Below are positions 17,305 through 51,105 of a stretch of 53,590 nucleotides of DNA, one piece after another; the first letter of the stretch is position 1; each line of letters begins with the position of its first letter. Source of the stretch: Chlorobiaceae bacterium (GTDB taxonomy: Bacteria; Bacteroidota; Chlorobiia; Chlorobiales; Chlorobiaceae); NCBI GenBank assembly GCA_013334485.1, contig JAAXXL010000012.1:1-53590 (forward strand). The letters are read 5' to 3'. Position numbers and translations under genes: made by a program. The notes below the pieces were generated by a model. That model searched no databases. It saw only the letters and a program-made list of their open reading frames with translations, and had not been told where the DNA came from.

Positions 17305-17446
17305 GGGCACCTCTATTTATTTATTCCGAAACCCGATTACTGCGTTGGGTGGTGCTCGAAATCCTCATGTACTCCGTGTACACTCCGGTTTCTGTGCTCC
17401 ATCCGCCTTGTCCTCGGGCTTCTCACGACAATAAATAGAGGCGCCC
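17305..17446. repeat. MITE-like repeat, copy 1 (142 bp)
   Basis: Ends are inverted repeats: GGGCACCTCTATTTATT at the left and AATAAATAGAGGCGCCC at the right (16 of 17 matched). It is flanked by the direct repeat ATAA on both sides. The interior holds an imperfect palindrome around GTACTCCGTGTAC. The same sequence recurs at 29333 and 42584. No frame in it is long enough for a transposase. Confidence 0.85.
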
Positions 17447-24247: not shown

Positions 24248-25369
24248 TCACTCCGAAACCTTCCGGTAACGGTTGACGGCAAGGGCGAGCATGAGAGCAG
24301 CGAAGAGGGTGAGGATCAGGAGCGGGATCGCGATTTCGGCAATACCGGAGCCTTTGAGCATGACGCGGCGCATAATATCGACAAAGTGGCGGACAGGATT
24401 GAGCATGGTCATGATCTGGGCCCAGTGAGGCATGCTTTCAATGGAGGTAAAGAGGCCGGAGAGAAGCGTGAAGATAACCATGAAGAACCAGGCGATAAAC
24501 ATGGCCTGCTGCTGGGTTTCGGTGACGGTTGAGATGAGAAGGCCCATACCGAGCACAACCAGCAGATAGATTCCTGCAACAAGGTAGACAAGAGCATAGC
24601 TGCCAAGCATCGGCACATGAAACAGAAGTCGGGCAATCAGCAGCCCGACACTCAGCTCCCCGAGGCCGATAATCCAAAGCGGAAGCAGCTTGCCGGTGAT
24701 AAACTGATAGCGCTTGATCGGGGTAACATTGATCTGGTCGATGGTGCCGATCTCCCGCTCCCGCACCACATTCATGCCTGAAAGAAAGAGTCCGATGAGA
24801 GTGACCAGAATCACAATGATGCCCGGCACCATGTAGTGGGTGTACTTCAGCTCAGGATTGTACCAGCTTGAGGAGACCATGCCGATCTCCCCCGCCACCT
24901 CAACCGCCCCCGAGGGAATCAGACGCTTCAGCTCCCCTTGATTGAAGTCGGCAACAATCTCGCTGGCATAGGTCTGGATCACTCCTGCCGAAAAACCATC
25001 CTCGGCGTTGATCATGAGCTGTACAGGAGCGTGGCCGGTTGTAACAAGATCACGCTCGAAACCGGAGGGAATGACAAGAACCAGATCGGCATTGCGCCGA
25101 ACAAGCTCGCTCTGGCTCTCCTTGTCTGAAGCGGAGTAACCAGTCAGGATAAAGTAACCCGAAGCGGTAAACTTTTCGGCAAGTAACCGCGATGTTACCG
25201 AGTGGTCTCTGTCCTGAAGGTGAAAGGGTACCCGAGAGATGTCAAAGGTCGCCGCATAGGAGAGAATCACGAGCTGGATGAAGGGCAGCACAAAGATGAT
25301 CGGGAGCATCCCCCTGTTGCGGAATATCTGCAGAAACTCCTTCTGGAGGATGAAAAAAATTGTTCGCAT
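24248..25369 (-). CDS. ABC-2 type permease, second (YbhR-like)
   Basis: 373 residues from ATG 25369. One N-terminal membrane helix (about 18-40) is followed by a large extracytoplasmic loop and five C-terminal helices (about 175-370). The family motif NVVREREIGTIDQINVTPIKRYQFITGKLLP is present in part. A longer upstream frame exists, but the ATG overlaps the previous stop (TAATG) and fits the family start MRTIFFILQKEFLQIFRNRG. With the adjacent permease it would form the membrane channel of a YbhGFSR-type exporter. Last gene of the export operon. Confidence 0.92.
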   Translation of the reverse strand: MRTIFFILQKEFLQIFRNRGMLPIIFVLPFIQLVILSYAATFDISRVPFHLQDRDHSVTSRLLAEKFTASGYFILTGYSASDKESQSELVRRNADLVLVIPSGFERDLVTTGHAPVQLMINAEDGFSAGVIQTYASEIVADFNQGELKRLIPSGAVEVAGEIGMVSSSWYNPELKYTHYMVPGIIVILVTLIGLFLSGMNVVREREIGTIDQINVTPIKRYQFITGKLLPLWIIGLGELSVGLLIARLLFHVPMLGSYALVYLVAGIYLLVVLGMGLLISTVTETQQQAMFIAWFFMVIFTLLSGLFTSIESMPHWAQIMTMLNPVRHFVDIMRRVMLKGSGIAEIAIPLLILTLFAALMLALAVNRYRKVSE

Positions 25370-26484
25370 TACTGAAGTCTTATTTTGAACTTCTTGATAC
25401 TTGCCACGATCAGGATGGTGCTCATGGCCACGAGTACCAGTGTCTCCTTCCAAATGTAGCTGAATCCGGCGCCTTTGAGCATGATGCCCCGCACAATAAT
25501 GAGATACCATTTAGCGGGGATGATGTTGCTGATCATGCGCAGGGGCAAAGGCATGCTGGCTACCGGAAAGATGAAACCCGAGAGCAGGATAGTCGGAAGC
25601 AGCAACCCTGCAAGGGCAATCATCATGGCAACCTGCTGTGAGGAGGTGACCGAGGAGATAAAGATGCCGAGAGAGAGCGCGGTGACAATAAAGAGCAGCG
25701 ACTCCAGCAGCAGAAGCAGCAAACTTCCCCTGCACGGGACACCGAAAACAAGGGCGGCTACGGCAATGATGGTCAGAACATTGATGAAGGAGAGGAGAAA
25801 GTAGGGTACAACCTTGCCGATAATGATCCCGGCGGGGCGAAGCGAGGAGACCAGCAGCACCTCCATCGTGCCGCTCTCTTTCTCCCGCGTGATGCTGATC
25901 GAGGTCATGAGCGCAGAGACCAGCATAAGAATGAGCGCCATCAACCCAGGCACAAAGAGATCAACGCTTTTCAGTTCGGGATTGAAAAGCATAAGGGGAA
26001 CCGCCACAACCCCAGCCTCCATTCCGGATCCTTGCACTGAGCTGTTCCGGAAATCCTGCAAAACAGCGGCTGTATATCCGGAGACAATGCGCGAAAGATT
26101 AGGATTTGAGCCGTCAGTAATCACCTGCACCTCTGCCCTCCCATCCCGCTGGAGGCGGCGGGCAAAATCCGGTTCAAAAACAAGCGCTTCAGTTATGCTT
26201 CCGGTGGAGAATGCATCCTCAATCTCCTTCTCCGAGCGCACCTCACGGGAGAGGATAAAATAGCCAGACGAGGCAAATTTGCTGATGATCGCGCGCGTAA
26301 CCGCGTCGCGGGATTTGTCATACACACCGAGTTTTACATCCTGAATCTCGTTGCGAATGGCGAAACCAAAAAGGAGCAACTGAATGAGCGGCATGCCGAA
26401 GAGTATGACCGCCGTTCTGCGGTCGCGAAAGATGTGGTAGAACTCCTTCTGAAGAAATCCCATAAAACTCAGCATACCATTCAC
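25369..26484 (-). CDS. ABC-2 type permease, first (YbhS-like)
   Basis: 371 residues with the same architecture as its neighbour: LQKEFYHIFRDRRTAVILF at the N-terminus, a periplasmic domain (about 45-170), then several membrane helices. The coupling segment SITREKESGTMEVLLVSSLRP is typical of ABC-2 permeases. Stop and next start overlap by one base. It is separated from the two ATPase genes by the BrnT/BrnA pair, which looks inserted. Confidence 0.92.
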   Translation of the reverse strand: MNGMLSFMGFLQKEFYHIFRDRRTAVILFGMPLIQLLLFGFAIRNEIQDVKLGVYDKSRDAVTRAIISKFASSGYFILSREVRSEKEIEDAFSTGSITEALVFEPDFARRLQRDGRAEVQVITDGSNPNLSRIVSGYTAAVLQDFRNSSVQGSGMEAGVVAVPLMLFNPELKSVDLFVPGLMALILMLVSALMTSISITREKESGTMEVLLVSSLRPAGIIIGKVVPYFLLSFINVLTIIAVAALVFGVPCRGSLLLLLLESLLFIVTALSLGIFISSVTSSQQVAMMIALAGLLLPTILLSGFIFPVASMPLPLRMISNIIPAKWYLIIVRGIMLKGAGFSYIWKETLVLVAMSTILIVASIKKFKIRLQ

Positions 26485-26616: not shown

Positions 26617-26844
26617 TCAAGCGCTCTTCTTTTCGTGCCTTTTCACTATCGGAAGAAGTGACCGCAATGCCTCGTTCACAGAGTCATGGTCAGGAAAATA
26701 TTTAGCCACATCCGGATCAATTACAACGACATTGGTTCCCTCAGCATATTTTGCTGAACACTTACCCCTTACGCCTTTGCTGAAGTCATATTCTTCGAGC
26801 ATATCAGGATCATCCGGCATTACTTTCATACTGTAACCTCTCAT
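26617..26844 (-). CDS. brnA: BrnA-like antitoxin
   Basis: 75 residues. The stretch EEYDFSKGVRGKCSAKYAEGTNVVVIDPDVAKYF has the DFSKxxRGK opening and a short ribbon-helix-helix-like region seen in antitoxins paired with BrnT. It overlaps the toxin gene by 35 bp. Three in-frame ATGs (26844, 26829, 26820) are available and the true start is not certain. In BrnTA pairs the complex represses its own promoter. Confidence 0.78.
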   Translation of the reverse strand: MRGYSMKVMPDDPDMLEEYDFSKGVRGKCSAKYAEGTNVVVIDPDVAKYFPDHDSVNEALRSLLPIVKRHEKKSA

Positions 26845-27091
26845 TTTTTGTCGCCTTTCTGGCGCTAATTATTCGAATATCATCACCTCGCTCCGTATGC
26901 ACAACAATTAACAAACGGTTTTTGTGCGAGGTTCCAATGACAACAAATCTTTCCTCATTTTCAGAATGCAGGGGATCATGAAGTGTCAATGACAGAGAAT
27001 CTCCAAAAACTGTACTTGCCTCAACGAAAGAAATTCCATGTTTTTGTTCATTACTGAGTGCTTTTTGGCTATCCCACTCAAATGAAAGCAT
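26810..27091 (-). CDS. brnT: BrnT-family toxin (RNase)
   Basis: 93 residues with the BrnT core: FEWDSQKALSNEQKHGISFVEAS, FGDSLSLTLHDP, ERFVVIGTSHKNRLLIVVHTERGDDIRIISARKAT and a C-terminal ERLQYE. This RelE-fold family cleaves RNA. The order toxin then antitoxin with overlap is typical. The pair lies inside the ABC exporter operon, between ATPase and permease genes, with its own 157-bp upstream region (27092-27248) that can hold a promoter. Confidence 0.9.
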   Translation of the reverse strand: MLSFEWDSQKALSNEQKHGISFVEASTVFGDSLSLTLHDPLHSENEERFVVIGTSHKNRLLIVVHTERGDDIRIISARKATKNERLQYESNAG

Positions 27092-27248: not shown

Positions 27249-27986
27249 TTAAAACGTTTTGTCATGTCTGGCCAGATTGATAAACACCTCGTTCATGCTC
27301 TCTACTCCGTGCTGCCGCTTTAACGCTTCAGGAGTGTCAAGTGCAGCCACTCGGCCATCAACCATGATCGAGATGCGGTCGCAATACTCGGCTTCATCCA
27401 TGTAGTGCGTTGTCACAAAAACCGTCACGCCCTTTTCGGATGCCTCGTAGATCATATCCCAGAAGCGCCGCCGTGTTATCGGATCAACTCCTCCTGTCGG
27501 CTCGTCGAGAAAAACGATTTTCGGCTCATGCAAAATAGCCACGGAAAAAGCGAGCTTCTGCTTCCATCCGAGAGGCAGTGAACGAAGGAGTGTATTGGCT
27601 GCATGCTGCAAATCAAGAGTCTCAAGCAGCTTCGCACTCTTCTCCCTGATTGCCGTGTCGGTGAGGCCGTAGATTCCTGCGAAAAAACGGATGTTCTCTT
27701 TCACCGTCAGGTCATCGTAGAGCGAAAATCGCTGGCTCATATAACCGATGTTCCGCTTCACCTTCTCGGACTCGGTGTAGAGGTCAAATCCTGCAACAGA
27801 AGCTGCTCCAGTTGAAGGCGTGAGCAGTCCGGTCAGCATCCTGATTGCGGTGGTCTTGCCCGCACCGTTTGCGCCGAGAAATCCGAATATCTCCCCTTTG
27901 TCGACCGAAAAGCTTAACTCGTCCACTGCAATAAAATCGCCGAAGCGGCGGGTAAGCTTGTCGGTAAAAATAACCGGCTTAACCAT
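27249..27986 (-). CDS. ABC transporter ATPase (YbhF C-terminal-half-like)
   Basis: 245 residues. Walker A GANGAGKTT is at 38-46, the Q-loop region is YMSQRFSLYDDLTV, and Walker B is IVFLDEPTGGVDP, with the switch His in VTTHYMDEA. The ABC signature is the atypical LPLGWKQKLAF seen in the second half of YbhF-type proteins. E. coli YbhF carries two such domains in one chain; here they are split between two genes overlapping by 8 bp. It drives the exporter encoded around it. Confidence 0.93.
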   Translation of the reverse strand: MVKPVIFTDKLTRRFGDFIAVDELSFSVDKGEIFGFLGANGAGKTTAIRMLTGLLTPSTGAASVAGFDLYTESEKVKRNIGYMSQRFSLYDDLTVKENIRFFAGIYGLTDTAIREKSAKLLETLDLQHAANTLLRSLPLGWKQKLAFSVAILHEPKIVFLDEPTGGVDPITRRRFWDMIYEASEKGVTVFVTTHYMDEAEYCDRISIMVDGRVAALDTPEALKRQHGVESMNEVFINLARHDKTF

Positions 27987-28920
27987 CAGGCTCTCCGGTT
28001 TTCGATTCCATAAGCGCCATGAAGGTGTCCTCGATTCCGGGAGTTATCCGCATAACCTCGACCTCCGTAAAACCCTGCCGCTGAAGTGCCTCAAGCAACT
28101 CATCAGGAGTTTGCCCAGGGCATTTGGCGGTATAGTGAACCGCACGGCCAAAGGCATAGACAGAGTGCGCTTCGGTTGTAGATCGCAGCCAGGTTATGAG
28201 CTGCCATGTTTGTCGGGCACGGATGGCAAAGAGGGGCCTGCGGAAAAGGGTGGTGATGGCCGAGGGAGTTTCAACGGCAAGAAGACGCCCCTCCTGCATA
28301 AAGGCTATACGGTCGCAGAGCGCCGCCTCATCCATGTAGGGAGTGGAGACAAGCGTGGTAATCCCCTGCTCCTTCAAGCGGCCAAGCATCTGCCAGAACT
28401 CCGCGCGCGAGATCGCATCGACACCGGTGGTCGGTTCATCAAGCAGGAGCAGCTCAGGCCGGTGAACCAGTGCACAACAGAGCGCAAGCTTCTGCTTCAT
28501 CCCTCCTGAGAGTTTACCTGCCCTCCGGTTTTTGAAGGGCTCAAGCTGGATGTAGATATCACGGATAAGCTCGTAATTCTCAGAGATAGTGGTACCGAAG
28601 ATGGTGGCAAAAAAACGGAGGTTCTCCTCAACCGTCAGATCCTGATAGAGCGAAAATCGACCAGGCATGTAGCCGATCCGGCGGCGGATGTTGCGGTATG
28701 AATCCACCACGTCAAGCCCTGACACTTCGGCTTTACCACCGCCCGGCAAAAGCAGGGTGGCAAGAATTCTGAGCAGGGTTGTCTTGCCTGCCCCGTCAGC
28801 GCCGATAAAACCAAACAGCTCTCCCTCATCTACAGAGAGCGTCATCTCCTGAAGCGCCTCGACAGCGCCAAACCGCTTTGAGAGTGCGGAGAGCTGAACT
28901 GCCCGTTTAGCGATACTCAC
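27979..28920 (-). CDS. ABC transporter ATPase (YbhF N-terminal-half-like)
   Basis: 313 residues. Walker A GADGAGKTT, signature LSGGMKQKLALC, Walker B LLLLDEPTTGVDA, and a C-terminal extension of about 90 residues with FTEVEVMRITPGIEDTFMALM, as in YbhF. The start is GTG at 28920, overlapping the stop of the third 48-residue peptide gene (GTGA). That fixes the start and couples its translation to the peptide gene. Downstream it overlaps the second ATPase. Confidence 0.93.
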   Translation of the reverse strand: MSIAKRAVQLSALSKRFGAVEALQEMTLSVDEGELFGFIGADGAGKTTLLRILATLLLPGGGKAEVSGLDVVDSYRNIRRRIGYMPGRFSLYQDLTVEENLRFFATIFGTTISENYELIRDIYIQLEPFKNRRAGKLSGGMKQKLALCCALVHRPELLLLDEPTTGVDAISRAEFWQMLGRLKEQGITTLVSTPYMDEAALCDRIAFMQEGRLLAVETPSAITTLFRRPLFAIRARQTWQLITWLRSTTEAHSVYAFGRAVHYTAKCPGQTPDELLEALQRQGFTEVEVMRITPGIEDTFMALMESKTGEPDG

Positions 28921-29063
28921 CCAACGCGGGTTCCACCTTTTCCCGCTATCGGAACATCCTGCAACTCCTCCTCCGAACTCTTTTCTCCTGCGGGCTCTGC
29001 ACTCTCCTCTTCGTTGACGATCTCCATCAACTCATCAAACTCACTTGACTCTTCTGTTGACAT
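28917..29063 (-). CDS. 48-residue acidic peptide, paralogue 1 of a tandem set
   Basis: Not recognised as a known family. 48 residues: the conserved part MSTEESSEFDELMEIVNE (1-18) is predicted to be helical, then comes a Glu-rich middle and the tail PIAGKGGTRVG. It has no Cys, no signal peptide and no membrane segment. It matches two upstream paralogues without a single gap. Its TGA overlaps the GTG start of the ATPase gene (GTGA), strong evidence that it is translated and part of the export operon. Possible roles are an exported peptide precursor with a leader, or a small partner of the transporter. No peptide-modifying enzyme gene is nearby. Confidence 0.75.
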   Translation of the reverse strand: MSTEESSEFDELMEIVNEEESAEPAGEKSSEEELQDVPIAGKGGTRVG

Positions 29064-29135
29064 GTTAACTGCATGGATTGTAGTTACCGAGAAAAAATGT
29101 ATCGACATACTCCGAAAATGTTCAGAAGCGGTTTT

Positions 29136-29282
29136 TCACCCGCCTTTACCACCGGCTTTTCCCGTCAGTGGAATTTCCAGCTCCTGCTCCTCTTCACTCT
29201 TTTCTCCTGCGGGCTCTGCACTCTCCCCTTCGTTGACGATCTCCATCAACTCATCGAACTCATTTGACTCTTCTGTTGACAT
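29136..29282 (-). CDS. 48-residue acidic peptide, paralogue 2
   Basis: Same length and plan as its neighbours: MSTEESNEFDELMEIVNE, an acidic middle (GEKSEEEQELE), and tail PLTGKAGGKGG ending in Gly-Gly. The frame is open upstream to an ATG at 29327, but the shared MS(T/V)EES start places the real one at 29282. It shows the same lack of an obvious Shine-Dalgarno as the other two. A MITE-like repeat lies between it and paralogue 3, 51 bp upstream of its start. Confidence 0.72.
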   Translation of the reverse strand: MSTEESNEFDELMEIVNEGESAEPAGEKSEEEQELEIPLTGKAGGKGG

Positions 29283-29332
29283 GATAGTAATTCTTAATTG
29301 ACAGTTAGCACCCTTGACAGATTTCAAGTTTT

Positions 29333-29474
29333 TGGCACCTCTATTAATCTATTCTGCGATTCGATTGCTTCATTAGGCGGTGCTCGAAATCCTCAAGTAC
29401 GCCGTGTACATTCCGGTTTCTGCGCTCCGTCCGCATCGCACTCAAACCGCTCACGACAATTAATAGAGGTGCCC
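29333..29474. repeat. MITE-like repeat, copy 2, inside the peptide gene array
   Basis: Left end TGGCACCTCTATTAAT and right end AATTAATAGAGGTGCCC are inverted repeats. The element is flanked by TTTT on both sides (29329-29332 and 29475-29478). The interior GGTGCTCGAAATCCTCA matches the copies at 17305 and 42584 but is the most diverged. It lies between two peptide genes. Confidence 0.8.
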
Positions 29475-29502
29475 TTTTGATTACTTTATGTGGTGGGACG
29501 CC

Positions 29503-29649
29503 TCACCCTGCGCTTGTTCCACCTCTCTTGAGAATTGGCGTTTCCGGCTCCTCCTCCTCTTCACTACCTTCCCCCTGGGGAACTGCGATCTCCTCTTCAT
29601 TGACGATCTCCATCAACTCGTCGAACTCATTTGACTCTTCTACAGACAT
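29503..29649 (-). CDS. 48-residue acidic peptide, paralogue 3 (first in transcription)
   Basis: 48 codons from ATG 29649 to TGA 29503. It starts MSVEESNEFDELMEIVNEEE, continues with the acidic run GSEEEEEPE, and ends PILKRGGTSAG. Residues 4-6, 8-18, Pro24, Gly26, Pro38, Gly44 and Gly48 are identical in all three paralogues. It lies 117 bp downstream of the HlyD gene. No known family is recognised; the conserved N-terminal half and variable basic tail recall leader and core of a peptide precursor, but this is inference. Confidence 0.72.
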   Translation of the reverse strand: MSVEESNEFDELMEIVNEEEIAVPQGEGSEEEEEPETPILKRGGTSAG

Positions 29650-29766: not shown

Positions 29767-30681
29767 TCACAATGCTCGCTTCTGCAAGCGCACTTCACCC
29801 GGCATACCTATCTTGAGCATGCCATCGCGATTCTGAAGCAGCACCTTGACCGCATAGACCATACTGACCCGCTCCGCTTTAGTCTGAATGATTTTGGGAG
29901 TAAACTCCGCCTTTGAAGAGATCCAGGAAATTGTACCCATGAGCACTTTTCCGTCGCTGGCGGCTCCATCCACCGCCACATCAACAACCTGACCGATCTT
30001 CACTTCCGAAAGCTGGGCACCGCTGAGATAGACCCTGAGATAGATGCGCTCAAGATCAGCGATCCGGTACAACGCTTTTCCTGATGAAGCAAGCTCTCCC
30101 TGCTCGGCATATCTGGAGAGTACCACACCGGTAACCGGGTTTCTGACTGTGCATTTGCGGAGCTGGTCATCTATCCGGGAAAGAGCAGCATCATGAGCTT
30201 TGATCTCGGCAGAAAGTGCGGGATACTCGGCCTCAAGAGATCCTCTCTGCCTCTCAAGTACGGTGATCCGGTTCTCAAACTCCTCAAGCTGCCGTGTGGG
30301 TACCGCCCCTTCACTGACCAGCCTCCTGTAGCGATCACGGTCACGAATCAGGTTTGATCGCTCCTGTTGCAGCACGCTGATTTTAGCACCGAGTCCGGGC
30401 GCTTTTGCCACAAGAGCCTCCCGTTCAGCCTTGAGCTGCATCCTCGAGTAGTGGAACTGCGTGGTATCAATAACAGCGGTAATCACCCCTTTCTGCAGGG
30501 TAGAGCCCTCCTCAGCATCGAAGTGCAGCAGCCTGCCGCTTGATTCAGCCGACACAACAACCTCGGTTGCTTCGAAATTGCCGTATCCATCAGCCTTGTC
30601 ATTACTGTGGCAACCGGAAAAGAGAAGCGTGAAAAGCAGAGAGATGGAAGCTCGCCTTACCCATGCATCAAGTCGGAACAT
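29767..30681 (-). CDS. HlyD/YbhG-like membrane fusion lipoprotein
   Basis: 304 residues. The N-terminus is a lipoprotein signal with lipobox FSGC (Cys24). A biotinyl-lipoyl-like domain (SSGRLLHFDAEEGSTLQKG) flanks a coiled-coil hairpin (about 75-170). A beta-barrel domain with VRNPVTGVVLSRYAEQGE and KIGMPGEVRL follows. It would link the inner-membrane ABC-2 permeases to an outer-membrane channel. It is the first gene of the export operon on the minus strand, followed by the three peptide genes and the ATPases. Confidence 0.92.
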   Translation of the reverse strand: MFRLDAWVRRASISLLFTLLFSGCHSNDKADGYGNFEATEVVVSAESSGRLLHFDAEEGSTLQKGVITAVIDTTQFHYSRMQLKAEREALVAKAPGLGAKISVLQQERSNLIRDRDRYRRLVSEGAVPTRQLEEFENRITVLERQRGSLEAEYPALSAEIKAHDAALSRIDDQLRKCTVRNPVTGVVLSRYAEQGELASSGKALYRIADLERIYLRVYLSGAQLSEVKIGQVVDVAVDGAASDGKVLMGTISWISSKAEFTPKIIQTKAERVSMVYAVKVLLQNRDGMLKIGMPGEVRLQKRAL

Positions 30682-32001: not shown

Positions 32002-32235
32002 TTACTTTTTAGGCGCAATAGCTGATGATACACTCTGGAGTACATTGTTCAGTGTACCGGCAAGATTGGTCGCTAAATCAGTAACTGTTTTTGCAAGTGG
32101 TTCTGCAATCTGTGACACGGTTTTGATACCGCTGTTCAGGGCATCAATCTGGAGCTGAAATACCTTACCAATAGTATCAGTAAGACTATTAATAGCGCCG
32201 GAGAAGTCAACATTTACGTTTGATCCGTTTGACAT
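32002..32235 (-). CDS. csmB: Chlorosome envelope protein, CsmB/CsmF type
   Basis: 77 residues without Cys or Trp. It opens MSNGSNVNVDFSGAINSLTD, continues with amphipathic Ala/Val/Leu-rich helices, and ends NVLQSVSSAIAPKK. Length, N-terminus and composition fit the CsmB/CsmF proteins of the chlorosome envelope, from memory of the family. These small proteins coat the bacteriochlorophyll-filled antenna organelle of green sulfur bacteria. csmB is more likely than csmF, but the paralogues cannot be separated with certainty. Monocistronic, between a strong terminator and an A/T-rich upstream region. Confidence 0.72.
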   Translation of the reverse strand: MSNGSNVNVDFSGAINSLTDTIGKVFQLQIDALNSGIKTVSQIAEPLAKTVTDLATNLAGTLNNVLQSVSSAIAPKK

Positions 32236-34080: not shown

Positions 34081-35472
34081 TTATTTTGCTGCCGAAAGCC
34101 ACCTGTTGAGCTGATCAATCTCTTTTTCAGTGAGAACTCCTGCTCTCTGCTTGAGCATCAGATTATTAAGAATATACTGATACCGTAATTTGGCAAGATC
34201 ACGCCGGGTTGTAAGCAGCTTCCACTCTGCATCAAGCACATCCACATTGCTGCGGATTCCAGCTTCGAATCCCTTTTTTGTTCCGGCCAGAGCAATTTCT
34301 CCTGATTTAACCGCCTGTTCGTAGGCCTGAATCTGGGCAATGGCGGTAAGCACAATATTGTAGTACTTACGTATATCCGATTCAACTCCCCGCTCCTTGC
34401 TGCTGAGATCTTCGACGGATTTCAGACTCTTGGCATGCGCCTGGCGTATTGCTGCGCTGGCGTAACCTCCTGTATAGGTGGGAACACTCAATTGCAAACT
34501 GATCGAATAGGTATCGTAGGTCGATCCTATTGAGTAGTTGTTGTCACTCTCGGAATAGTTTTTTCCGCCGACAAGGTCAATCGTCGGATAACGGGTCCAC
34601 CGCTGTTTATCGACCTCGCGTTTTGCAATCTGAATCTCCTGGCGGGCAGCCACAAGTGCAGGATTGGACGTTCGAGCCAGTTCAATCCACTCATCAACGC
34701 TCTGTGGTTCCGGTTTGGATAGAACAATCTTCGAAGGGATCAGCCTTGAGAGCCCTTCCGGATAGACCCCGGTCAAATCTTCCAGCTCCCTGCGACTGTA
34801 CTCCACAGAACTTGAAATATCAACCCCCTCTGCAAGCGCAATATCATAGCTCGCCTGCGCCTCATTGATTTCGGTAATCGTACCGAACCCGTTCTCATAA
34901 CGACGTTTTGCCTGGCGATACTGCTCAAAAGTCGCTCGGGTGTGTGCCTGGCTGAACTGGAGGTTATCCTCGGCAAAAAGAGCGTTGCAGTATGCCTCGG
35001 TCACCCGTACAATCAGGCTTGCCTCTTCACCCTGAAGTTCAGCATCACTCTTGGCCGCAACAAACTTTGATTGCTGATATTCAGCCAAATTTGATAGGTT
35101 CAAAAGCGGTTGACGAACCGTTACGCCGTAATTGATTGTATTGTAATAATCTACAGGTGTGTACCTGCCAAGGTATCCATGCTGCGTTGAGCTGCGACCA
35201 CGCGAAGCACTCAATCGGACGTTGGGACGCAATTTAGATCTTGCTTTTCCGATCTCTTCCCTGTAGATCAGATTATCGGCCTTGGCAACACGGAAACGGG
35301 CATCGTAGGTCAGGGCATTCTGATAGGCCGTCAGGAGATCAAGAGGAGCCGCAAAAACTGTCCGGGCAGCAAACAGCACTCCAACAGCCATCAATAGACT
35401 CACCTGCTTTATCATCGGTACGTTCACGTCATGTTTCGTTATACATGCAATACTTTTAAGCAACCTCACCAT
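34081..35472 (-). CDS. TolC-family outer membrane channel of a type I system
   Basis: 463 residues with a signal peptide (hydrophobic 25-42, cut after VFAA). Two outer membrane efflux repeats follow, each with a long coiled coil. The second ends KKGFEAGIRSNVDVLDAEWKLLTTRRDLAKLRYQYI, the family hallmark. It resembles AprF/PrtF of protease exporters. GAGGAG overlapping the upstream HlyD stop lies at good distance before the ATG 35472. It forms the outer-membrane exit for the HlyD and ABC proteins encoded just upstream. Confidence 0.9.
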   Translation of the reverse strand: MVRLLKSIACITKHDVNVPMIKQVSLLMAVGVLFAARTVFAAPLDLLTAYQNALTYDARFRVAKADNLIYREEIGKARSKLRPNVRLSASRGRSSTQHGYLGRYTPVDYYNTINYGVTVRQPLLNLSNLAEYQQSKFVAAKSDAELQGEEASLIVRVTEAYCNALFAEDNLQFSQAHTRATFEQYRQAKRRYENGFGTITEINEAQASYDIALAEGVDISSSVEYSRRELEDLTGVYPEGLSRLIPSKIVLSKPEPQSVDEWIELARTSNPALVAARQEIQIAKREVDKQRWTRYPTIDLVGGKNYSESDNNYSIGSTYDTYSISLQLSVPTYTGGYASAAIRQAHAKSLKSVEDLSSKERGVESDIRKYYNIVLTAIAQIQAYEQAVKSGEIALAGTKKGFEAGIRSNVDVLDAEWKLLTTRRDLAKLRYQYILNNLMLKQRAGVLTEKEIDQLNRWLSAAK

Positions 35473-35477
35473 TGAAC

Positions 35478-36659
35478 CTACTCCTCTTTCATGGAGACCA
35501 TGATCTTCTTCACTAAAGGATCAATCAGATAGAGCAGAAGTGAGCGCTCCCCTGTCTTGACAACAACAATGACCGGCATTCCGGGCTGCATCTGCCGATG
35601 ACCAAGCGATTTCATTCCCTCCGACGTCACCATAACCCGGGCAAGATAGTAGTTGGCCCCCGGCTGCATGGGATTCGTCTGGGGTTCGGTTATAATGTCT
35701 TTTGAGACTGACTCAACAACACCCTCTACAACAAGCTGAGGGGAGTGTGCAAATGCCGAAAAGCTGACATCAACCGGAAGAGCTTTATGGATACTGTCAA
35801 TAAGATGGGGAGCCACCTTGGCATCAATAAGCAACCCCTCACTCGTCGGAACAATATCCATAATTTTCTGGCCCGGTTGCACCACTGCTCCCACCGTCTG
35901 AACCTGCAAACCAACCACCTGCCCTGAGGATGGTGATCGAATCTCGGTATCAGCAAGCTCTGCAGCAAGCGCTTTGGTTTTTTCAGCATCAGCCTCGACT
36001 TCAAGCAAAATCTGTGCAAGCTGGGAGGCGGTTGCTGATCTGAACTCCGAGATCTTCAACTCCAGATCACGCTGCTGACTCATCGGGGCATATCCCTCTC
36101 TGACCAGTGATTTGATACCCGCAAGCTGTGCATTGAGCAAGCCGAGGGTTGTATTTCGGGAAAGAAAAAGCTGCCGTTCATTGGCCATATTCCTCTGAGC
36201 CAGCTCTCTGTCACTGTCATTCAGCAGATCGGGATGAAACGTAATGGAGCGGGATCCTCTCAGCTCTGCATTAAGCCGGTCGGCGGTTGCCCGTATACCA
36301 AGATAGTGCTGATGAGCTTCATCAAAGCGCGCTCTTGCCGTCTGACTGTCAAGGGTTATGAGCAGGTCTCCCTGACGGACCATCTGCCCCTCACGGACAT
36401 GTACCTTCTCAATACGCCCTCCCCTGAGATTCTCCACAACCTTTCGTTTTGTAGCAATACTCACGATTCCCTGACAGGGCACACCCTCATCAAGAGGAGC
36501 GAATCCTGCCCAGAGCAGAAACCCACCGAATCCGACAAGGAGTATCCAGATACCAAGCCTTACCGGGCCTCTGGTATCACGATACTTCTCCCTGCTTTTT
36601 GCGAGTTGCGCAGCCTTGTCAGCTTCAACATCCGCCTTGAGTGCTTTTCTCTCTTCCAT
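35478..36659 (-). CDS. Type I secretion membrane fusion protein (PrtE/HlyD)
   Basis: 393 residues. A cytoplasmic charged N-terminus of about 30 residues precedes one membrane helix (about 34-50). The lipoyl half-motif RGGRIEKVHVREGQMVRQGDLL, a helical hairpin (about 110-220) and RSPSSGQVVGLQVQTVGAVV follow. The C-terminal MQPGMPVIVVVKTGERSLLLYLIDPL is the classical HlyD/PrtE ending. It bridges the ABC protein and TolC. 41 bp after the second ABC gene and 6 bp before tolC. Confidence 0.95.
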   Translation of the reverse strand: MEERKALKADVEADKAAQLAKSREKYRDTRGPVRLGIWILLVGFGGFLLWAGFAPLDEGVPCQGIVSIATKRKVVENLRGGRIEKVHVREGQMVRQGDLLITLDSQTARARFDEAHQHYLGIRATADRLNAELRGSRSITFHPDLLNDSDRELAQRNMANERQLFLSRNTTLGLLNAQLAGIKSLVREGYAPMSQQRDLELKISEFRSATASQLAQILLEVEADAEKTKALAAELADTEIRSPSSGQVVGLQVQTVGAVVQPGQKIMDIVPTSEGLLIDAKVAPHLIDSIHKALPVDVSFSAFAHSPQLVVEGVVESVSKDIITEPQTNPMQPGANYYLARVMVTSEGMKSLGHRQMQPGMPVIVVVKTGERSLLLYLIDPLVKKIMVSMKEE

Positions 36660-36699
36660 AAGCTTATTGATCTTCCTTTAATACTTCTCAAAATTCAGT

Positions 36700-38403
36700 T
36701 CAGGATGACACTCCTGCTGGCGTTGCCTGCCTCATTGCAGCGATAACCTCATCGCGAGGCCCGCAAAGATCAATCCTGCCTCCCTTCATCAAGACAACCA
36801 GATCGGCTGCACCGAGAATACTTGGACGATGGGTAATCAGAATAACTGTTTTTCCTGCTGCTTTCATATCTCCGACCGCTTGAAGCAGGGAGCGTTCACC
36901 AGCATCATCAAGATTGGCATTCGGTTCATCAAGAACAAGAATGGCAGGATTTCCGTAAATAGCACGTGCAAGCCCAACCCTCTGGCGCTGACCTCCCGAA
37001 AGCATTCCGCCAGCTTCACCAATCTGAGTATCATAACCACGAGCAAAACCAAGAATCATCTCATGAATTCCTGTACGGCGGGCAGCTTCAATCACCTTGA
37101 GTGAATCAACTTCAGTAAATCGTGCAATATTTTCAGCAATAGAGCCATCAAAAAGCTCTATATCCTGCGGAAGATATCCAAGATGTGGTCCAAGCTCCGC
37201 TCTGTTCCAGCTCCCGACAGGGTCACCGTCTATGAGAACAACTCCCTCCGGATGCGGCCATACGCCGACAATACAGCGGGCAAGTGTTGATTTTCCTGAT
37301 CCTGAGGGGCCAAGCACAACAACAACCTTTCCTGCAGGAAACATCACCTGAATATGATCGAGAATGGGCGATTGACGACCTTCCACGCGCACGGTAAGTG
37401 ACTCTATACGGATTTCGCCAAAAGGATCCTGATGCCGCGCTTCCGGCTTCTGTTCCGGAAACTCTTCAAGCAGCTTTTCAAGACGGTTGAATGCTGTAAG
37501 TGAGTGAACAAAAGGCTTCCATGTGGCCACAACAAGATCCAGTGGCTGCAATGCCCTCGACATCAGAACATTTGCCGCGATCATTGAACCGGGAGACATC
37601 GTACCATCAATAACCAGAAGCGCACCGGCTCCAAGAGTCAAAGACTGCATGGTGTAGCGAAGAAACTTTGCCCAGGCCTGTTGACGATGCTGACGATTCT
37701 GGGAAGACTCAGCCTTGGCCAGGGAGGCGTCGTTAAGGATAAACCAGCGTTTCATGAGATTCCCGCTCATCCCCATTGCATGGATCGGCTCAATATTGCG
37801 CAGCTTGCTCTGCAGATAGCGGTAGCTCTCATTACCGGCTTCAGATGCATGCTCAATCTCTCTTCGGGTCAAAAGATGGCTTTGAAAGGTTACCAGAAGC
37901 TGAATAATCGCAAAGAGAATCGAAAGCCAGCCGAGAAGGGGGTTTAGAATAAAAATTACAGCAATATAGATCGGAGTCCAAGGGGTATCAAAAAAGGCAA
38001 TCATGCCATTTGCTGTCAGAAACTGACGGATATTGGCAAAATCCTGAAAAGCTTCACTTATTTTGTGCGTGCTTCGGGTAAGATATGCCTCAAAACTCGC
38101 TTTGAACACAAGGGAGTTCAGCGCTTCATCAAGCTGAACGCCGGCACGAACAAGAAGACGGGAACGCAGCCACTCGGCAAAAGCCATAACCACATAAAAC
38201 AGAATCAGAAAAAGAGTTACCATGAGCAGGGTCAATTCACTGCCGCTCTTCAGAACCCGCCCGTACACCTGAAGCATATAGAGCGTAGGAGCAAGCATCA
38301 GCAGATTGGCGATCATGCTGAAAATACCTACCCACACAAAAAGGCGTCGAAACTTCCAGAGCTGGCGGGAGAGGATACTCTGATTAAAAAATTCAGGTCT
38401 CAT
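36700..38403 (-). CDS. Type I secretion ABC permease/ATPase, second
   Basis: 567 residues, PrtD family. A six-helix membrane domain (about 20-300) with MLAPTLYMLQVYGRVLKSGSELTLLM is followed by a nucleotide-binding domain. Walker A GPSGSGKST, Q-loop GYLPQDIELFDGSIAENIARF, signature LSGGQRQR, Walker B ILVLDEPNANLD and switch His ITHRPSIL are all intact. No C39 peptidase domain is present, so no Gly-Gly leader cleavage is expected. It has the same length as the ABC gene upstream but differs clearly in sequence. Confidence 0.95.
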   Translation of the reverse strand: MRPEFFNQSILSRQLWKFRRLFVWVGIFSMIANLLMLAPTLYMLQVYGRVLKSGSELTLLMVTLFLILFYVVMAFAEWLRSRLLVRAGVQLDEALNSLVFKASFEAYLTRSTHKISEAFQDFANIRQFLTANGMIAFFDTPWTPIYIAVIFILNPLLGWLSILFAIIQLLVTFQSHLLTRREIEHASEAGNESYRYLQSKLRNIEPIHAMGMSGNLMKRWFILNDASLAKAESSQNRQHRQQAWAKFLRYTMQSLTLGAGALLVIDGTMSPGSMIAANVLMSRALQPLDLVVATWKPFVHSLTAFNRLEKLLEEFPEQKPEARHQDPFGEIRIESLTVRVEGRQSPILDHIQVMFPAGKVVVVLGPSGSGKSTLARCIVGVWPHPEGVVLIDGDPVGSWNRAELGPHLGYLPQDIELFDGSIAENIARFTEVDSLKVIEAARRTGIHEMILGFARGYDTQIGEAGGMLSGGQRQRVGLARAIYGNPAILVLDEPNANLDDAGERSLLQAVGDMKAAGKTVILITHRPSILGAADLVVLMKGGRIDLCGPRDEVIAAMRQATPAGVSS

Positions 38404-38446
38404 AGGTTAAAATACACTGTTCCGCTAAAATTCAACTTCGGGGTGA

Positions 38447-40150
38447 TTACGCTCCCGAGTGCTGGGGTTGAGAGGCTCCCTGCTTTGGAGCAAGTACCTC
38501 CTGGGTAGTTCCAAATCGCTGAATCTGACCATCAACAAGGACAAGAACATGCTCCATGGATCCAAGAATATTCAGTCGATGCGTTATAACAACCACCGTT
38601 GTACCCTGTGCCCGTAATACCTTGATAGCATTAAGCAGCGCAATATCTCCAGCTTCATCAAGACTGGCATTAGGTTCATCAAGAACAACAAACTTCGGAA
38701 TACCGTAAACAGCCCTTGCCAGAGCTACCCGCTGCCGTTCGCCACCGGAAAGAAATGATCCGTCATCACCAATCTGTGTATCATACTTTTTCGGCAACCC
38801 TTCAATAAAACCCTCTAACCCTGCCATTCGACACGCATCGCTGACTTTTAACGTATCAGGAACATCAAATCGGGCGACATTTTCTGCAATGGTTCCTTCA
38901 AAGAGCTCCACATTCTGGGGCAGATAACCGACATACTTCCCAAGCTCCTCCTTATCCCATTGATACAAATCGTTACCATCAAGACGCACCTTTCCCTGCA
39001 TAGCCGGCCAAATACCGACAAGAAGCCGTGCAAGCGTGGTTTTGCCGGATGCAGAAGGACCAACAATCGCCAGCGATCCACCCGAGGCAACCCGGAAATT
39101 GATCCCTTTGAGAATCGGATTCTGGCTTCGCGGTGCTCCTGCAACAACACCTTCAACAAGCAAAAAGCCTTTAGGCGGAGGCAGGGGCATCTTTTTTTCA
39201 GGAAGAGGATACTCCCGTAGAAGAGCATCCAGACGATTGGATGCCTCAAGGGTATCTTCAATCTGGCGCCAACTGCCGATTATCTGAACAAGAGGCGCAA
39301 GTACCCGTCCGCCGAGAATGGATCCGACAATCATGCCTGAGCCAAAAAGCTGCCCTTTGAGCATCAACCAGCACCCCATTCCAAGCAAAAGTGAGCTTAA
39401 CAAGCTTTGCACCAGCTTGGAAAGTGCCGCATTGGTACCGGCATGATCCGAAGCGATAGCCTGCTGCATCAGAAACTCCTGCTGGCGAACCATCCACCTT
39501 TTGTGAATATTGCCGAGCATCCCCATCGATTCAATGACCTGGGCATTGCGAATCACCTCCTCAGCATAAACTTGCGCACTGTTGGAACTCCGGTTGGCAG
39601 CAATCATCGGTTCACGAACACGACGCTCATTGACAAAACCAATTGCAAACTGCACAACAGCTCCGCCAAGAGCAAACCATCCGAGCACAGGACTCATCAG
39701 AAAAAGAATCACCAGGATAAGCAGCGCAAGTGGCGCATCAATGATGGCAAGCATTGCTCTGGAGGGAAGAAATTCACGAATGGTCTTCAGATCACGAAGC
39801 GTATTGGCTCCTGATGCCGGCAAATTGGAAAGGCGTGCAGAAACAACAGCGCAAAAAACCTGAGCCCTGAGATCCTTGTCCAGCTTCAGACCGGCATCAT
39901 GCATAATCTGACTGCGAACCCACTCCAGCGCTTCAAGCAGGAGATAAAGAAAAACAACAAGAAGGGTAAGCATCAGGAGGGTCGTATGACTGCGGCTGTT
40001 TAGCACCCGGTCATAGACCTCCATCATATATGCGCTCGGCGCAAGAACAAGCAGATTAACAAAAAAACTGAAAAACAAAGTCTGTTTTAATGATGGGAAA
40101 AGCGCCAGAAGAGCCTCGCGCAAAGGAGATTTCTCTTTTGTGCTGTTCAC
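38447..40150 (-). CDS. Type I secretion ABC permease/ATPase, first
   Basis: 567 residues, PrtD family. The membrane domain contains LVLAPSAYMMEVYDRVLNSRSHTTLLML. The ATPase has Walker A GPSASGKTT, GYLPQNVELFEGTIAENVARF, signature LSGGERQR, Walker B FVVLDEPNASLD and ITHRLNIL, all intact. First gene of the operon abc-abc-hlyD-tolC-small protein. Two complete and different ABC proteins in one type I operon suggest a heterodimeric exporter or two substrate-specific ones. Confidence 0.95.
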   Translation of the reverse strand: MNSTKEKSPLREALLALFPSLKQTLFFSFFVNLLVLAPSAYMMEVYDRVLNSRSHTTLLMLTLLVVFLYLLLEALEWVRSQIMHDAGLKLDKDLRAQVFCAVVSARLSNLPASGANTLRDLKTIREFLPSRAMLAIIDAPLALLILVILFLMSPVLGWFALGGAVVQFAIGFVNERRVREPMIAANRSSNSAQVYAEEVIRNAQVIESMGMLGNIHKRWMVRQQEFLMQQAIASDHAGTNAALSKLVQSLLSSLLLGMGCWLMLKGQLFGSGMIVGSILGGRVLAPLVQIIGSWRQIEDTLEASNRLDALLREYPLPEKKMPLPPPKGFLLVEGVVAGAPRSQNPILKGINFRVASGGSLAIVGPSASGKTTLARLLVGIWPAMQGKVRLDGNDLYQWDKEELGKYVGYLPQNVELFEGTIAENVARFDVPDTLKVSDACRMAGLEGFIEGLPKKYDTQIGDDGSFLSGGERQRVALARAVYGIPKFVVLDEPNASLDEAGDIALLNAIKVLRAQGTTVVVITHRLNILGSMEHVLVLVDGQIQRFGTTQEVLAPKQGASQPQHSGA

Positions 40151-49440: not shown

Positions 49441-51105
49441 TTATAAGATCAGCCAAGCAAAAATGCCAATTGAAGCAACCCCTGCCACAACACCGACAAC
49501 TCCGGAACCAGAGTTTGCTGACGGGGTATCAACGTAAGGATTGGCGGTCGTAAAGTCATAGGTCTGATTGCCAGCATAGCTGTTTTCATCACTGTCTTTG
49601 ACCAGTCCGCCATCAAGCGAAACAGAGTAGTGAGTGCTGTATGCTAAAGGGGCCGTCGGGTTTATCGTAAGAGTGTTCTCCGAAATAGTGAGGCTTGCAC
49701 TTGTCGATATGTCGTATGGGGTTTCCAGAAAAATGCGACCGGACGATGAATCACTGAAAATCGAAACACTGCCTGAACCCCGCTGTATAACTTCATTGAA
49801 GGTAATGACTATATCATCCATAACGGCGACATTCACCGCACCATCATTCGGGCTGAATAACGTCACCGTTGGAGAATAGCTATTTTCCCTGGTAGTGTCG
49901 GCAAACTGAAACTGTTCAACACCACTCAAATAATCCGCACCATCACCGCCAACTCTCGTGTCCGTAATGGCATATATTCCTGCTCCCGCATCATAGGTGA
50001 TCGTATAGTCACTGCTGATTCCGCTGAACACTGCGATATCCAATCCATTTCCGCCATTGAGCGTATCATCGCCGCCCCCGCCCGTAAAGGTATTGGCAAG
50101 GCTGTTGCCAGTTATCGTATCATTTCCGGAACCGCCTTTGGCATTTTCAATCGAAACACCAAAAGCAATTCCAAGATTATTTGAACCGTCGTAAAGATCA
50201 GGTGCTGCTGAAGCTGAATTGAAAAAGTAAATAGATGAGTATCTACCTGCTGTCAGGTTGATCGTACAATCGGTACTGAAGTTCGAAATATCAATGGTAT
50301 CAATACCTCCTGCATCCCAGATGCTTTTGTAAAATGGAGTGGAGGGATCGAAAGTGTAGGTATTATCCCCACTCTGGTAACTGATGTTTGCCCCGTAAAG
50401 ATACTGGATAGCCGCAATATCATAAACCATAGGGGTTGACGGAACAACACCGATATATTGTTCCGGATTTTGCCTTGTATCCAGATACCAGTATTTCCAA
50501 TCATTATAGGACATTACAGAATAGTTCCTGAAATCCAGACTCTCAGGAAGATAAAGCCCTGTACCCTCTCCACCGAAGTAATTTCCGGGATGTTTAAGAC
50601 CGAGACCATGGCCGGCTTCATGAACAAGCGAGTAGTAGTTGTAAGAACCGGTGCTCCATGCTCCTTCCGTGGCAAAGGCTGGATTGATCCATACATCGCC
50701 AGCGCTTGCCCAGTAGTTGTCCGGATAGTAACACCATCCCCATGAGTCAGTGACAACGGAGGAGAATGCCAGACGGAAGTCACCGACGCTGCTCGCGGTA
50801 TCGGCAACCTGAGTTAAGACGATATTTGCAACATCTGACCAGCTTTGAAGCGCGCTGCTGACAGATGCTATTTGTTCAGCATTCAATGCAAAATGCTGAG
50901 CCGCTTTCTGTTCCAGCATATCACTGTAATCAGCTTGCCAGATCGCATCTTCGCTGTCACTCCAGGGAAAACTGTAGGAGAGCAACACTGCTGAATCAGA
51001 ACCATTACCCCATTTCTGACGATCTTCACTGAGAAGTCCATCAATAGTAGTCAAACCACTCTCAGTGAATATAGTGGTGGGTGAAGATGTTAAGGGAGTC
51101 GGCAT
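49441..51105 (-). CDS. Serralysin-like M10 metalloprotease with RTX repeats and C-terminal hydrophobic helix
   Basis: 554 residues, no N-terminal signal peptide. The zinc site HEAGHGLGLKH is at 162-172 and the Met-turn SVMSY at 196-200. Short RTX calcium repeats (GGSGNDTITG, GGGGDDTLNGG) occupy about 323-356. A Big_5/SbsA-like Ig domain covers about 411-520. The last 20 residues (534-554) are a hydrophobic helix preceded by a Ser/Gly linker. RTX repeats and lack of a signal peptide point to type I secretion, most likely by the system at 34081-40150. The terminal helix is not typical of serralysins and could anchor the enzyme. Confidence 0.92.
   Translation of the reverse strand: MPTPLTSSPTTIFTESGLTTIDGLLSEDRQKWGNGSDSAVLLSYSFPWSDSEDAIWQADYSDMLEQKAAQHFALNAEQIASVSSALQSWSDVANIVLTQVADTASSVGDFRLAFSSVVTDSWGWCYYPDNYWASAGDVWINPAFATEGAWSTGSYNYYSLVHEAGHGLGLKHPGNYFGGEGTGLYLPESLDFRNYSVMSYNDWKYWYLDTRQNPEQYIGVVPSTPMVYDIAAIQYLYGANISYQSGDNTYTFDPSTPFYKSIWDAGGIDTIDISNFSTDCTINLTAGRYSSIYFFNSASAAPDLYDGSNNLGIAFGVSIENAKGGSGNDTITGNSLANTFTGGGGDDTLNGGNGLDIAVFSGISSDYTITYDAGAGIYAITDTRVGGDGADYLSGVEQFQFADTTRENSYSPTVTLFSPNDGAVNVAVMDDIVITFNEVIQRGSGSVSIFSDSSSGRIFLETPYDISTSASLTISENTLTINPTAPLAYSTHYSVSLDGGLVKDSDENSYAGNQTYDFTTANPYVDTPSANSGSGVVGVVAGVASIGIFAWLIL

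Follow-up and report, generated by a model that had tools for sequence, protein, structure and literature searches.

An apparently undescribed family of tandem 48-residue acidic peptides within an ABC-2 exporter operon

To our knowledge, the physiological substrates of YbhFSR/RbbA-type exporters are largely unknown, and we know of no small genes of the kind described below in the E. coli YbhGFSR/RbbA systems. Phenol-soluble modulins (PSMs) are short, leaderless peptides, amphipathic and membrane-active, whose exporter, PmtABCD, has two ATPases and two permeases. The E. coli protein MntS, 42 amino acids (aa) in length, is not known to be duplicated inside the operon of its exporter. MntS acts on the MntP exporter, with genetics suggesting inhibition (PMC4361602), and NHLP is reported from Chlorobium luteolum (PMC2887384).

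The window (the whole stretch of DNA analyzed, 53,590 nucleotides) carries three 48-codon open reading frames (ORFs), in tandem on the minus strand, between the gene for a HlyD-type periplasmic adaptor and that for the first ATPase of an ABC exporter. The gene order is HlyD (29767..30681), peptide copies a (29503..29649), b (29136..29282), and c (28917..29063), ATPase 1 (27979..28920), ATPase 2 (27249..27986), and then ABC-2 permease 1 (25369..26484) and permease 2 (24248..25510), all on the minus strand. These coordinates confirm the placement of the peptides between the HlyD gene and the two ATPase genes in the initial annotation, and the set of a HlyD adaptor, two ATPase domains, and two ABC-2 permeases fits its description of a YbhGFSR-like export operon. 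The adaptor matched Pfam HlyD_D23 and HlyD_3 and has, by reading, a lipoprotein-like N-terminus; both ATPases and both permeases were identified with Pfam and NCBIfam. The best NCBIfam matches were PRK03598 for the adaptor, below its cut-off (115.9 versus 393), and RbbA for the ATPases and permeases, where scores of 250.2, 308.1, 234.4, and 205.5 compare with a cut-off of 1050 that was set for one fused protein of 909 positions and is hardly reachable by separate genes. The listed start of permease 2 is probably too early (420 aa versus 373 in relatives).

The peptide genes had been described as three in a row; they are tandem, but a dispersed repeat of about 140 bp (29334..29473) lies between copies a and b. 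This repeat has 15-bp terminal inverted repeats (GGCACCTCTATTAAT and ATTAATAGAGGTGCC), looks like a MITE-type element, and was found at at least 43 places in the 2.6-Mb genome, this one included (40 of 134 first-look candidates were scored), with another copy in the window at 17306-17446 and further ones at loci L002-L008. Rfam returned nothing beyond a subthreshold sX9 match on the repeat core (29395-29448; E 0.075, 23.3 bits versus a gathering threshold of 44). A BrnT-type RNase toxin gene (26810..27091, minus strand; Pfam BrnT_toxin, 3.5e-30) splits ATPase 2 from permease 1 and is absent from this gap in the relatives' loci L017 and L018; downstream of it, at the position of the BrnA antitoxin, is a small ORF without a Pfam match (region 26617-27091, minus strand). 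Directly upstream of HlyD in the relatives lies an apparent branched-chain amino acid ABC importer operon (L017:8549-13053 and L018:1375-5879), in which the L017 binding protein matched Pfam Peripla_BP_6 and the remaining genes were assigned by resemblance; this operon is not upstream of HlyD in the window. Regions 34081-40150 and 49441-51105 of the window carry a type I secretion system, made up of TolC, HlyD, and a tandem pair of 567-aa ABC transporters of which the one at 38447-40150 is of the PrtD type by NCBIfam, together with a gene whose product matches serralysin C-terminal and RTX repeat families.

Six copies of the peptide are known, three from the window's own genome (own_a, own_b, and own_c), two from the relative G028, and one from the relative G024. 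The length of exactly 48 residues and the gapless alignment first noted for the window's three peptides are right and extend to all six, each of which ends GGG-TGA; frameshifts in close relatives, raised earlier as an objection, were not seen, and the six copies in three genomes are without indels. Across all 15 pairs of copies, dN/dS was 0.16 to 0.62. Seven pairs were covered by a Fisher test of synonymous bias, which was pronounced in own_b/G024 (differences at 16 of 30.7 synonymous versus 15 of 113.3 non-synonymous sites, p 2.1e-5) and G028_b/G024 (p 4.1e-5), and also present in own_a/G028_c (p 0.0012), own_a/own_b (p 0.011), and own_c/G028_c (p 0.013); neither own_b/G028_b (p 0.19) nor own_b/own_c (p 0.16) rejected neutrality alone. 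Each of the six copies has an open antisense frame as well, but in all seven pairs compared (of 15 possible) pN/pS was lower in the sense frame. Finally, the last copy (copy c in the window) ends in all three genomes with a TGA stop that shares bases with the GTG start codon of ATPase 1, an arrangement kept in L017 and L018. Because the six copies align without gaps, their substitutions are skewed to synonymous sites, and the ATPase 1 overlap recurs in three of three genomes, we conclude that the 48-codon ORFs are real coding genes under purifying selection. Chance ORFs are ruled out by the gapless conservation, the synonymous bias, and the sense/antisense comparison, and an N-terminal extension of copy c is ruled out by a 2-nt indel upstream of its ATG between the window's genome and G028.

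Shine-Dalgarno (SD)-like pairing is absent from five of the six copies (0 to -0.4 kcal/mol; -6.6 in G024), although 18 of the 35 window genes also score weaker than -3. In the window, the tail codons of copy c contain an SD-like site for ATPase 1 (AAAGGTGGAA). The 117-nt leader of copy a aligns gap-free to the leader of the first copy in G028. The copy a leader (TAACTCAAAAATAACAGCACC) is also resembled by the 5' leader (TAACTTAAACCAATACAGCC) of a gene for a 77-aa protein (32002-32235, minus strand), which resembles chlorosome envelope proteins but matched Pfam Bac_chlorC only at E 0.15.

Residues 4-6 and 8-18 had been called invariant, which applies to the three window copies but not to all six (G024 has A4, K11, and K13). 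The tails, earlier described as variable, do differ between paralogues (PILKRGGTSAG in copy a, PLTGKAGGKGG in copy b, PIAGKGGTRVG in copy c) yet agree between presumed orthologues: own_b, G028_b, and G024, the only three of the six copies with a C-terminal GG, share GKAGGKGG, and own_c shares GKGGTRVG with G028_c. Over codons 21-48, dN/dS was 0.41 to 0.69 among the three window paralogues, 0.26 for own_c/G028_c, 0.47 for own_b/G028_b (few changes), and 0.12 for own_b versus G024, the last with dS near saturation (1.47) and with 13 synonymous and 10 non-synonymous differences (p 5e-5). Since G024 was typed as b from its tail, part of the conservation seen in that tail is circular, which does not apply to the synonymous changes. 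Because the tails are paralogue-specific yet kept between presumed orthologues, they look like fixed functional parts of distinct paralogues and not like hypervariable cores, in a comparison of conserved leader with hypervariable core that spans six sequences only.

All six peptides are acidic (pI about 4.05 to 4.27, net charge -9 to -14), lack Cys, and have, by reading, no long hydrophobic segment. AlphaFold2, run on the six-row alignment, predicted a helix at residues 3-21 with a block pLDDT of 74-77, falling to 50-55 beyond it (mean 62.3); residues 8-18 have a hydrophobic moment of 0.52, a value reached by 3-4% of shuffles for five copies and 10% for G024. The three window copies had no match in Pfam, and none of the six had one in NCBIfam. 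Two weak similarities were judged to be chance, one to PHROG 2310 (matched by four of the six peptides, best E 0.063) and one to a SecB chain in the PDB (E 0.56). No homologue occurred in the viral contigs, plasmids, and phages searched, or in two contig-collection scans (pattern pre-filter, and tblastn at E <= 1e-3), which possibly lack records near the window's genome and returned nothing from G024 or G028 either. The family was likewise not found in the open-access literature under narrow search terms. Lacking a significant family, structure, or literature match, the peptides are apparently an undescribed, tandemly duplicated small-protein family, in line with the initial annotation, which knew of no described system of this form. 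Such families, confined to one lineage and encoded within a transporter operon, are nevertheless familiar in kind.

The distribution of the family is narrow. Of 98 genomes from the order, whole-genome searches, repeated with a profile, identified three carriers, and the same three were the only ones among 394 genomes sampled from the phylum. Weak hits to part of the query (E 0.145-0.73; two in the plain and seven in the profile search) were left out of these counts; the raw tallies were four genomes at E <= 1 in the first search and 9 of 98 at E <= 10 with the profile, the extras being partial matches of E 0.188 or worse. All copies lie in the HlyD/ATPase 1 junction in the window's genome, G028, and G024, and the profile search found no significant copy away from it in the 98 genomes. 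The proposed check, whether homologues always neighbor HlyD/ABC-2 genes, therefore gave a yes in three of three genomes, but these form one clade, so the exporter linkage counts as a single evolutionary event and not as repeated co-occurrence.

As for the exporter itself, at the chosen cut-offs 49 of the 98 genomes have a match to ATPase 1 and 48 have one to HlyD. The two are side by side in 46 genomes when both match tables are combined (leaving out G056, with the genes on different contigs; G074, with HlyD only; and G088 and G090, with a weak ATPase and no HlyD). Three of these 46 junctions hold peptides, two, in the genomes G086 and G087 of another family, hold a DUF2147 gene (L089:1904-2401, minus strand, and L090:2431-2886, plus strand), and 41 have no room for a gene, their HlyD and ATPase 1 matches overlapping or lying at most 39 nt apart; 34 of these closed junctions were read from sequence (in two of them, G031 and G078, the HlyD match is partial) and seven from match coordinates. 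Because HlyD and ATPase 1 adjoin without peptides in 41 genomes, the exporter is older than the peptide family. An ATPase 1 tree of loci drawn from 30 of the 49 genomes places the three peptide-bearing ATPases in a single clade (support 0.997), which is most simply read as a single gain of the peptides followed by copy-number change.

Within this clade, the peptide cassette and the adaptor gene group the genomes differently. HlyD sites pair G028 with G024 (141 sites, versus 21 pairing the window's genome with G028), whereas the latter pairing dominates in the cassette leader (44 versus 4), copy b (27 versus 3), and copy c (30 versus 5), with a Fisher p below 1e-15 in each case when compared with HlyD. 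ATPase 1 sites are mixed (67 for G028 with G024, 60 for the window's genome with G028), and its tree pairs the window's genome with G028 (support 0.813). In 100-column blocks, G028-G024 identity is 92-98% over most of HlyD, 64-71% over the cassette and its flanks, and, within ATPase 1, 88-95% in the initial ~700 nt and 69-76% in the final ~300 nt. These patterns indicate that the cassette has been exchanged or replaced by recombination in one lineage, giving it a history different from that of HlyD.

The initial annotation had taken the peptides for a secreted or modified family with a conserved leader and a variable core. Against this, besides the kept tails and the absence of Cys, no double-glycine site was found, nor any shared maturase among those searched. 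A Gly-Gly or Gly-Ala cleavage site right after the helix is absent, residues 17-18 being Asn-Glu in all six copies. The C39 peptidase (PF03412) was found in none of the three peptide-bearing genomes, which are 94-99% complete, while the control was positive in 8 of 14, and LANC_like in none of three (control positive in 1 of 14). YcaO occurred in one of three, the window's own genome, on another contig (G000:C66:50294-51358, L091), and not in G024 or G028. Secretion of a modified peptide is thus unsupported, because there is no GG site, C39 and LanC-like proteins are missing from all three genomes, and YcaO is present in only one; none of these enzymes is common to the three. A Pup-like modifier was also considered and rejected, its ligase PafA (PF03136) being found in none of the three genomes (control positive in 1 of 14) and a terminal GG being limited to three of the six copies. 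The alternative offered at the outset, that the peptides are small exporter subunits or regulators, accounts for the data no less well than a secreted peptide does.

We tentatively favor the reading that these clade-specific peptides are soluble accessories or modulators of the ABC-2 exporter that are translated along with it, to which we give a probability of roughly 0.36. They would be small cytosolic proteins, strongly acidic and probably for the most part disordered, that are expressed together with the exporter. The predicted amphipathic helix at residues 3-21 may dock on a partner, most simply the ATPases encoded on the same message, with the Glu-rich stretch as a putative spacer and the Gly/Lys(Arg) tail possibly giving each copy its own contact or specificity. 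Because the exporter genes occur without peptides in most relatives, the peptides would tune the exporter and not be essential parts of it. The recurrent overlap with ATPase 1, the SD-like site in the tail of copy c, and the acidic, soluble product support a modulator, and MntS with MntP is a precedent for a small protein that acts on an exporter; the 41 of 46 junctions with nothing in them and the lack of SD-like pairing in five of six copies weaken that reading, and three copies with distinct tails are not typical of a stoichiometric subunit. The main rival, in that the operon carries other inserted genes both in other lineages and in the window's own genome, is that the peptides are passengers with an unrelated job that sit in the HlyD/ATPase junction and use the operon only for expression. 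This is possible though doubtful: a DUF2147 gene fills the same junction in G086 and G087, the operon tolerates the BrnT toxin gene and the dispersed repeat, and the peptides are limited to a single clade, but the stop/start overlap is kept in every carrier and no significant copy lies off the junction.

By analogy with PSMs and Pmt, the exporter could instead secrete the peptides unmodified and leaderless, which we consider unlikely. The tandem copies within an exporter operon and the combination of two ATPases, two ABC-2 permeases, and an adaptor would fit, and the separate history of the cassette mildly favors it, this kind of exchange being common at diversifying peptide loci. However, HlyD adjoins ATPase 1 without peptides in 41 genomes, the products are strongly acidic and in this differ from membrane-active peptides, the tails are kept between presumed orthologues, and neither the C39 peptidase nor any shared maturation enzyme among those searched was found. 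A bolder form, of distinctly low probability, would be a young, diversifying peptide-export system, in which an ancestral HlyD/ABC-2 exporter, retasked in one small clade (presumably Chlorobiales), secretes two or three acidic peptides, unmodified and each bearing its own fixed Gly/Lys tail, the cassette being swapped between lineages for signaling or competition. Regulatory leader ORFs, that is, translated spacers that set ATPase 1 translation by coupling, with the purine-rich tail as a ribosome site, are very improbable. They would account for the GTGA overlap and the SD-like site in copy c, but copies a and b are not beside the start of a larger gene, and a pure leader role is disfavored because the tails of own_b, G028_b, and G024 keep their amino acids while synonymous sites differ, and the six leader/intergenic RNAs show no folding advantage over shuffled sequences (z -1.62 to 1.38), which also leaves an RNA attenuator in the leaders unsupported.

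The locus neatly illustrates the entry of a new family of small-protein genes into an old transporter operon, and the before/after series, from a closed junction in 41 relatives to one, two, and three copies in three genomes, makes it a good test case. Should the peptides bind or ride the exporter, this would connect orphan small proteins with exporters of the YbhFSR/RbbA type and show how these come to acquire peptide partners.

Compared with known systems, the peptides share a helical acidic N-terminus, a short C-terminal tail, and tandem copies with double-glycine-leader and NHLP/Nif11 RiPP precursors, but differ in having no GG site, C39 peptidase, family match, or Cys. Unlike phenol-soluble modulins, they are strongly acidic, Glu-rich, and Gly-tailed. 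They resemble MntS in being small proteins linked to an exporter (PMC4361602), although MntP is an exporter of a different class. The operon itself is closest to the YbhGFSR and YhiI-RbbA-YhhJ exporters, with which it shares the HlyD adaptor, the two ATPase domains, and the two ABC-2 permeases and from which it differs in that its ATPases are encoded by separate genes.
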